Positions 17,945 through 24,189 of a DNA stretch of 35,365 bases are shown in pieces. This DNA comes from Chloroflexota bacterium. GTDB taxonomy: Bacteria; Chloroflexota; Dormibacteria; Dormibacterales; Dormibacteraceae. Every line of letters begins with the position of its first letter. The stretch's first letter is position 1. Below the pieces are notes generated by a model. It made no database searches. It saw only the letters and a list, made by a program, of their open reading frames with translations, and was not told the origin of the DNA. Made by a program: the position numbers and the translations under genes. The DNA lies in the NCBI GenBank assembly GCA_005883575.1, contig VBFH01000070.1, positions 1-35,365 on the forward strand, in the 5' to 3' direction.

Positions 17945-22367
<4,423 letters not shown>

Positions 22368-22414
22368 GGGAGAAACGAGTTTACCGGTGGCTGGAATTGC
22401 CCTATTCCGCCGTT

Positions 22415-23608
22415 ATGCTCCACGTGACTTTGGCACAGGAAGTCGATCTCGGCATGCGCGATCGCCTGCTCTACGAGCTGGCACGCGACCTCAGCTCCTC
22501 GCTCGACCTCGACACGGTGCTCGAGAAGGTCATGGACCGCGTCATCACGCTGATGAAGGCGGCGCGCGGCTTCATCGTCCTCGTCGACCCGCTGGACGGC
22601 AGCCTGTCGGTCCAGATGGCGCGGGGCGAAGCCGACCCTGAGAAGGCGCGCCAGTTCCTGGGCTCAAGAACCGTCATCGAGCACGTCGTCAAGACCGGCC
22701 AGGCGGTCGTCTCGACCGACGCCAGCCTCGACGACCGCTTCAAGGGGCGGCAGTCGGTCATCCTCCAGAACCTGCGCTCGATCATCGCCGTGCCTCTTGT
22801 GACCAAGGGCAAGGTCATCGGCGCCGTCTACGTCGACAACCCGTTCCGGGCGTCCATCTTCGAGGAGAAGGACAAAGAGTTCCTGCAGGCGATCTCCGAC
22901 CTGGCCGCGATCGCCATTGACAACGCCCGCCAGTACGAGCGCTCGGAGTTCTTGCGCCAGGTCTTCGAGGCCCATGTCAACAAGCAAGTCACCGATTACG
23001 TGCTCACCCGCTCCGGCCGCACCCTGAGGTTCCTGCCTGGCGAGCGCCGCGAGGTGACGATGCTCAACTCCGACATCGCCGGCTTCTCGACCCTGTCCCA
23101 GAGCATGGACGCAGAAGAGCTCGTGCGCTTCCTGAACGACTACTTCCAGCGCATGATCCGCGTGGTCCTCGACCACGGCGGCAACATCGACAAGTTCCAG
23201 GGCGACGGCATGCTGGTCGTCTTCGGGGCGCCGAACCCCATGCACGACCACGCCGAGCGCGCGCTCAACGCGGCCCTGGCAATGGTCAGGGAGGTCGATC
23301 GCTTCAATCGCGAGCTGGTCGACGCCGGCCGGAGCGCGATCGCGGTCGGGATGGGCCTCGACACCGGCGAGGTGGTGGCGGGGCATGTCGGGTCGGACGA
23401 TCGGATGGAGTTCACGTTGATCGGCGTGCCGGTCAACAACAGCGCTTACCTGTCCAAGGTCCGCCCGGCCCGGGTCCTGATGTCGGAGTCGACCCGATCG
23501 CGGATGCCGAACGGATTCCACGTCGCCGACTTCGAGCCATTGCTGCTCAAGGGCGCGAAGGGCCCGCAGGCGATCTACGAGCTGGCGATCTCAGTCACGA
23601 GCGACTAG
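22415..23608 (+). CDS. GAF domain-class III nucleotidyl cyclase
   Basis: The protein has 397 residues. An N-terminal GAF domain (about 20-172) is linked to a class III adenylyl/guanylyl cyclase domain (about 212-395). The metal-binding aspartates are Asp220 (LNSDIAGFS) and Asp264 (FQGDGMLVVFG). Lys260 and Thr334 match the purine-selecting Lys/Thr pair seen in some adenylyl cyclases, and Asn341 is kept. The transition-state arginine expected four residues on is Tyr345 (VNNSAYLS), and the usual GD before VN is GV. Catalysis may therefore be weak, altered or lost. The start could be ATG 22415, which has no RBS, or ATG 22454 with AGGAAG upstream. It is divergent from pcrA. Confidence 0.88.
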   Translation: MLHVTLAQEVDLGMRDRLLYELARDLSSSLDLDTVLEKVMDRVITLMKAARGFIVLVDPLDGSLSVQMARGEADPEKARQFLGSRTVIEHVVKTGQAVVSTDASLDDRFKGRQSVILQNLRSIIAVPLVTKGKVIGAVYVDNPFRASIFEEKDKEFLQAISDLAAIAIDNARQYERSEFLRQVFEAHVNKQVTDYVLTRSGRTLRFLPGERREVTMLNSDIAGFSTLSQSMDAEELVRFLNDYFQRMIRVVLDHGGNIDKFQGDGMLVVFGAPNPMHDHAERALNAALAMVREVDRFNRELVDAGRSAIAVGMGLDTGEVVAGHVGSDDRMEFTLIGVPVNNSAYLSKVRPARVLMSESTRSRMPNGFHVADFEPLLLKGAKGPQAIYELAISVTSD

Positions 23609-24189
23609 CCCTGGCACACCCAGCGGCCGGGACCATAGTGGGAGTAAAGCCACGCGGCGGCGAAAGCATTGGCACGGGGATCGAAGGGCGACTGGCTGGC
23701 GTACGGAGTGCCCGACCACGTGCTGGGCAGGAACTGGAACAAGCCTGACGCGCCGCTGTCGGTGTTCACCGAGTTCGGGTGGTAGCGCGACTCGCACCAG
23801 GCGACGTTCATCGCCCACTGGACGGCAGCGGCCCCCAGCGGGCTGAATGCGTCGGTGATGTCCTTGGCGATCTCGGCCGGGGGCGCGGGGTGGTTGCTGC
23901 GGGCGGCGATGGCGGCCGCCTGGGCCTGCGCCGCGGCCAGGGCCTGCTGCTTGGCCTCATAGTCCGCCAGTCCCTGCTTCAACTCACTCGACCACGAGGC
24001 GACCTGCGCCATCTGCGCGGCCTGGACACGCTCGCTGCGGTTCTGCTGCACCACCGAGTTGCGGTCGAAGGCGTTCAGCTGCGTGACCGCCACCTGCACC
24101 GGGTGCATGGTCGGCGGATCCATGCGCGGAAGGATCACGCTCACCAGCAACACCACCCACACGAGCACCGCTCGGAATAGCGGCAGCAA
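23605..24189 (-). CDS. Secreted lytic transglycosylase / Rpf-like protein
   Basis: This is a 194-residue exported muralytic protein. A hydrophobic N-terminal segment (AVLVWVVLLVSVILP) is a signal peptide or anchor. An alanine/glutamine-rich helical linker (about 40-110) follows, then a lysozyme-like domain: AAVQWAMNVAWCESRYHPNSV with the catalytic glutamate, GASGLFQFLPSTWSGT and DPRANAFAAAWLYSHYGPGRWVCQ. It cleaves peptidoglycan; the pattern fits SLT/resuscitation-promoting-factor domains. A TTG start at 24189, preceded by AAGAAGGGG, fits best; a GTG slightly downstream is possible. Its stop overlaps the convergent cyclase gene. The 163 nt upstream show no riboswitch that I can recognise. Confidence 0.85.
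   Translation of the reverse strand: MLPLFRAVLVWVVLLVSVILPRMDPPTMHPVQVAVTQLNAFDRNSVVQQNRSERVQAAQMAQVASWSSELKQGLADYEAKQQALAAAQAQAAAIAARSNHPAPPAEIAKDITDAFSPLGAAAVQWAMNVAWCESRYHPNSVNTDSGASGLFQFLPSTWSGTPYASQSPFDPRANAFAAAWLYSHYGPGRWVCQG

Follow-up and report, generated by a model that had tools for sequence, protein, structure and literature searches.

Gene Organization and Domains at the Locus

The window, meaning the whole 35,365-nucleotide stretch analyzed here (contig VBFH01000070.1), belongs to an assembly of 3.6 Mb in 127 contigs and encodes a 397-amino-acid protein with a GAF domain and a class III cyclase-like domain (22415..23608, + strand), as indicated by the open frame, Pfam matches and orthologs. 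The frame runs from an ATG at 22415 to a stop codon at 23606–23608; a GTG at 22310 lies upstream in the same frame, and the start codon is unproven. The GAF domain (residues about 30–170; 22502..22921, + strand) matches PF13185 and PF01590, and this region also matches the NifA model TIGR01817 weakly over residues 19–186 (62 bits vs. a cut-off of 529). The class III cyclase catalytic domain (residues 207–391; 23033..23587, + strand) is delimited by PF00211, a structure model and structural matches; the match to Pfam Guanylate_cyc (PF00211) spans residues 212–389 with an E-value of 5e-21 and 75.5 bits, above the cut-off of 21.9. We take the protein to be a soil-bacterial relative of cyclic AMP-making enzymes.

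The divergent neighbor is a pcrA/uvrD helicase gene (20145..22367, − strand) that lies 47 bp from the cyclase-like gene. Among 52 orthologous loci (L015–L066, in which many organisms are counted twice), 49 show this divergent arrangement, and the other three have less than 300 bp of upstream sequence. The convergent neighbor encodes an SLT-domain protein (23605..24189, − strand) and is present in 46 of the same 52 loci; it is missing from L038, L042–L044, L039 and L064, the last two of which end within the cyclase-like gene. At the window locus, ligA is next after pcrA, and the order ligA–pcrA–cyclase (18160–22414 in the window) is kept in those orthologous loci that reach that far. Both pcrA and ligA are housekeeping genes. 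Genera that lack the cyclase-like gene have a different gene before pcrA (L108:1947-3101 and L110:182-1225); Pfam gives no match for these open reading frames at E <= 0.001, and by eye they resemble membrane proteins.

In some orthologous loci, a gene for an AAA-ATPase/class III cyclase lies beyond the SLT gene on the opposite strand (e.g., L050:8001-11264; also at L016, L022, L024, L033, L051, L052, L057, L059, L061, L062 and L066). Its product is about 1100 amino acids long where complete, has the catalytic Arg, and shows weak TPR-like matches. This AAA/TPR cyclase was considered as a linkage-based partner and rejected, as the two genes are not co-distributed: among 42 family genomes searched at E <= 1e-40, its cyclase domain was found in 15 and was absent from 27, the window genome included, and thus it is no obligate partner.

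Distribution of Orthologs

Of the 42 GTDB-family genomes, 31 (window genome included) carry a full or partial ortholog at E <= 1e-40, and a class-wide search (110 genomes, E <= 1e-35, with up to 17 candidates scored per genome) found none beyond the same 31 genomes. In a phylum sample of 301 genomes (up to six candidates scored per genome), the next best full-length match outside the orthologs has 36% identity. Named ortholog records are metagenome-assembled genomes of Chloroflexi, Candidatus Dormiibacterota or Dormibacteraeota, and the most distant orthologs (L042–L044) are about 55–57% identical to the window protein. The gene is missing in 11 of the 42 family genomes, four of which have pcrA without an upstream cyclase; the other seven have no pcrA match (E <= 1e-60), so that the absence of the cyclase-like gene from them may reflect missing assembly. 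In genomes of genera g2, g7 and g8, which are without the gene, the window protein has only weak matches (best E-values 6e-7 to 3e-13). No Arg-bearing ancestor was found at the pcrA locus when the upstream flanks of pcrA (about 3 kb each, 2 kb for G026) from 18 genomes in which no ortholog had been detected, four of the same family (G018, G024, G025, G026) and 14 from other families of the class, were searched: none of their open reading frames matched the cyclase HMM at E <= 0.01.

Active-Site Residues of the Clade

Residue counts were taken from 30 orthologous loci (L015–L044, window copy included), of which 29 cover residue 345; L039 stops short of it. All features given below are on the + strand. 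The first metal aspartate, Asp220 (23072..23074), is present in 30/30 loci, and the second, Asp264 (23204..23206), in 29/29. Base-selecting Lys260 (23192..23194) and the second base-selecting residue, Thr334 (23414..23416), are likewise invariant (29/29 each), as is Asn341 (23435..23437), the Asn of the N-x3-R motif (29/29). These five residues, which the first-pass annotation had listed as kept, are read directly in the translation. Lys is the adenylyl cyclase-type first base residue, and Thr is the second in some adenylyl and guanylyl cyclases (excerpt of PMC4215837). Of the features of catalytic competence, the metal aspartates and the base-selecting pair are present and the N-x3-R motif is incomplete.

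Tyr345 (23447..23449) occupies the place of the transition-state Arg. This replacement, from which the first-pass annotation had started, is read directly, and the alignments to Cya2, CyaB and CyaC agree in putting Tyr345 on the N-x3-R arginine. Close orthologs with Arg at the site were looked for and none was found: the residue is Tyr in 26/29, Phe in 3/29 (L023, L024 and L038) and Arg in 0/29, and Tyr is also present in the broken-frame locus L066. An aromatic residue persists here in orthologs down to about 55% identity. The substitution is therefore fixed in the clade and is no isolated mutation. The interchange of Tyr and Phe makes a chemical role of the Tyr hydroxyl unlikely.

A shift in alignment that would yield an Arg was also looked for. 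The phmmer alignment to CyaB (3r5g) is free of gaps from Asn341 to Ala352, so no shift brings an Arg onto the site, and the first Arg downstream of Asn341 is Arg350, nine residues on. A frameshift or sequence shift behind Tyr345 was rejected, given that the same letters occur in many genomes and that the CyaB alignment is ungapped near the VN motif. An apparent Phe at position 345 in the non-clade domains L069 and L076 is an artifact of a gapped view, and the HMM alignment shows Arg there.

Other positions also mark the clade, in the sense of being shared by 95% or more of family rows but by less than a quarter of outgroup rows; they include Ala222, Asn257, Gln262, Asp316, Val338, Asn342, Ser347, Lys348 and Arg350. 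Gln262 (23198..23200) is probably a base-pocket position; it is Gln in 29/29 family sequences and in 0/53 domains outside, one of which is gapped there, and the position is mostly hydrophobic or small in relatives. Phe336 of human soluble adenylyl cyclase (sAC) presumably lies two residues past the base-selecting lysine and so would match Gln262. The adenine pocket of human sAC is shaped by hydrophobic residues including Phe336 (excerpt of PMC4506562). Lys348 (23456..23458), a candidate substitute charge, is Lys in 29/29 family sequences and in 0/53 outside (HMM alignment), and Arg350 (23462..23464) is present in 29/29 and in 3/53 outside. Compared with CyaB and Cya2, the segment following Asn341 has one residue fewer, and the placement of the gap around residues 347–350 is uncertain: L087–L091 keep Arg and have a Lys one residue beyond position 348, which a gapped tblastn view places under 348. 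Lys379 (23549..23551), in an LKG motif, is invariant in 20 aligned rows, and motif alignment suggests that it is the counterpart of Lys1065, the β/γ-phosphate lysine of transmembrane adenylyl cyclase (tmAC).

Val338 (23426..23428) takes the place of Asp in the common GDxVN form, and is Val in 29/29 family sequences, compared with Asp in 37/45 outgroup sequences. The first-pass annotation had correctly read this GV in place of GD; as a diagnostic sign, however, it carries little weight, because three crystallized cyclases are also without that Asp (at the aligned position, Cya2 has Ala, CyaB Arg and CyaC Pro).

The cyclase domain is under purifying selection among the nearer orthologs, with a dN/dS of 0.07–0.23 against L016–L026 (81–90% identity). 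For the distant orthologs L038 and L042–L044 the ratio is 0.50–0.63, a value that is unreliable because dS is about 0.5–0.8 near and far alike and so looks saturated.

Comparison with Other Class III Domains

The comparison set of 53 class III domains outside the clade, 13 from the window genome and 40 from relatives, consists of hits of searches with the window protein or PF00211 and is thus a non-random sample. Arg is present at the position of residue 345 in 51 of the 53; one domain has Lys (L014) and one has Cys (L106), the alignment being less sure for the most divergent domains of the window genome (L010–L014). Among the 26 outside domains that keep both aspartates, Lys, Thr and Asn, 25 have Arg and one has Cys. 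L106 belongs to a different family of the phylum; its residue at the position of Gln262 is Glu. In the relatives, Asp338 is found in 33/40 and Glu or Gln at 347 in 26/40; both are replaced in the clade along with Arg.

In a tree of 73 domains, a single branch with support of 100/100 separates the 29 family rows from the rest, which is consistent with, but does not prove, a single origin of the clade. Support is weak (88/43) for joining the clade to L100 and L102, which bear the Arg, and better (96/84) for the wider group that takes in L068 and L071; the tree carries a long-branch warning for the outgroup.

The full-length structure model was poor (pLDDT 64), and the fold search used a model of the cyclase domain instead. 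This model, built from 20 sequences, has middling confidence (pLDDT 77, pTM 0.78; the other four of the five domain models scored 59–63), and represents a ligand-free monomer with a predicted class III fold in which residues 343–346 form only a short helix. The domain model (mf6c1b95b56d9) matched P. aeruginosa CyaB (3r5g_B) best, with a Z score of 21.2 and 185 residues aligned at 3.0 Å, and matched Cya2 (2w01) with a Z score of 20.0. Synechocystis Cya2 (2w01/6fht) is also the best sequence match to the window protein (E 4e-35 to 5e-35). Cya2 and CyaB share the metal and Asn positions with the window protein but, unlike it, keep the Arg (VNLTYR and VNLASR), and they have Met or Val at the position of Gln262 and one extra residue after the Asn. 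GAF plus class III cyclase-like proteins from other families of the same phylum (L087–L097) align with the window protein across both domains (residues about 18–381, 31–36% identity); unlike the window clade, all 11 carry Asp338 and the Arg at position 345, and they have no Lys at 348.

Comparable losses are already known from neorhodopsin guanylyl cyclase subunit NeoR and from the C1 halves of mammalian cyclases. NeoR likewise has no N-x3-R arginine and keeps the base residues but, unlike the window protein, is without the Asn too (T455, K459), and it is a fungal, rhodopsin-linked subunit of a heterodimer (excerpt of PMC12264004). NeoR is inactive alone, with Lys at the Arg site, and its heterodimer site is proposed to be regulatory; restoring both Asn and Arg in NeoR-cat gave no activity, and such losses can therefore accompany other changes (same excerpt). 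Some cyclase-like proteins of Bacteroidetes have Gln, His, Tyr or Cys at the position of the Cya2 Arg; these belong to another lineage, have a Glu-Lys/Arg base pair, and several members keep the Arg (excerpt of PMC4886424). A Toxoplasma GC2 domain has Met in this place (excerpt of PMC6592433), and Ma1120 is active despite the absence of the Asn, the Arg being kept there (excerpt of PMC4215837). A search of open-license PMC papers found no report of the present clade, and no active homodimeric class III cyclase that naturally is without the Arg; for both, this is weak evidence of absence.

Possible Functions of the Domain

The roles assigned to these residues in studied enzymes differ. In tmAC, the equivalent arginine, Arg1029, coordinates the α and β phosphates and has a proposed role in phosphoryl transfer, whereas holding the triphosphate and acting in the first step falls to Lys1065 together with the aspartates and metals (excerpt of PMC9223806). 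In sAC, Asn412 and Arg416 straddle the ribose and α phosphate (excerpt of PMC4506562). Judged by the tmAC assignments, the clade retains the residues that serve binding and is missing the one to which chemistry is assigned. The reading that we favor, and hold tentatively, is that the protein may form a class III cyclase-fold homodimer coupled to GAF that would bind metal and a purine nucleotide (probably ATP), and in which the phosphoryl-transfer step would be lost or very slow because the N-x3-R arginine is aromatic throughout the clade. The protein would then report the nucleotide, or nucleotide plus GAF ligand, by its conformation, with little cyclic nucleotide made; nucleotide binding, dimerization, low turnover and a signaling role are thus what we infer. 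In favor of this reading, position 345 is always Tyr or Phe while Asp220, Asp264, Lys260, Thr334 and Asn341 never vary. Against it, fully retained metal aspartates are expected equally well of an active enzyme, fixed Lys348 and Arg350 could replace the lost charge, and loss of the Arg might reduce activity rather than abolish it.

It is possible, though on the unlikely side, that the protein is instead an active cyclase with an altered site, in which Lys348 (less likely Arg350), about one helical turn on in the shortened segment, would supply the charge and Gln262 would adjust the base pocket, perhaps with a changed substrate preference. The clade-wide Lys348 and Arg350, the absence of that Lys from the outside domains, the one-residue shortening after Asn341 with only the short helix in the model, and the invariant metal, base-selecting and Asn positions all fit such an enzyme. 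However, the gap placement at 347–350 is uncertain, L087–L091 have a nearby Lys and yet keep the Arg, and NeoR, with Lys at the Arg site itself, is inactive alone (excerpt of PMC12264004).

A third reading, which we consider improbable, draws on analogy with NeoR/RGC1: the protein may be the regulatory half of a heterodimer, its aspartates serving the site of a partner and its own pocket binding nucleotide without turnover. This would account for the retention of everything except the Arg, it has precedents in NeoR/RGC1 and tmAC/sAC (excerpt of PMC12264004), and a further 13 class III domains are encoded in the window genome, 12 of them with the Arg. Against this, no sister gene with the same GAF–cyclase build was found among the five other cyclase open reading frames of the window genome that were read (one has CHASE2 by Pfam, one is a similar 322-residue frame, and three are membrane-linked or ATPase-linked by eye), and the AAA/TPR cyclase is absent from this genome and most of the family, as described above. 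Two related cyclases, L125:1107-3350 (CHASE2 by Pfam) and L125:13678-14643, lie about 10 kb apart in the window genome (G000, contig C94); the latter has an open frame of just 322 residues, possibly because of a truncation or frameshift.

That the domain is degenerate and kept only as a dimerization or structural module for GAF is very improbable. The loss of the catalytic Arg along with the usual Asp338 and Glu/Gln347 speaks for it, but in a mere scaffold the residues for metal and base would be expected to vary, and they are constant in 29/29. Any of the options that the first-pass annotation had offered, namely a slow cyclase, another residue or a partner acting in trans, and a nucleotide sensor, may apply; the AAA/TPR cyclase was one candidate for the option in trans. 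The window genome has nine matches to cNMP-binding domains at E <= 0.001, eight of them above the family cut-off; together with its 13 other class III domains, these mean that parts of cyclic-nucleotide signaling are encoded whichever reading holds.

Biological Significance

The arginine of the N-x3-R motif counts as a hallmark of catalysis in class III enzymes. A stable bacterial clade that is without this Arg and keeps the other catalytic positions named above is a natural test of the need for the arginine, and also tests whether homodimeric cyclase domains can act as nucleotide sensors. It is, in our estimate, rather doubtful that the clade represents a stably inherited homodimeric lineage with a rebuilt site, with an aromatic residue for Arg, the charge moved to Lys348 on a shortened helix, and a pocket changed by Gln262; if true, the charges of such an enzyme would be laid out differently, and its nucleotide substrate might differ as well. 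The clade would also be a caution that not every protein with PF00211 should be annotated as a cyclase.
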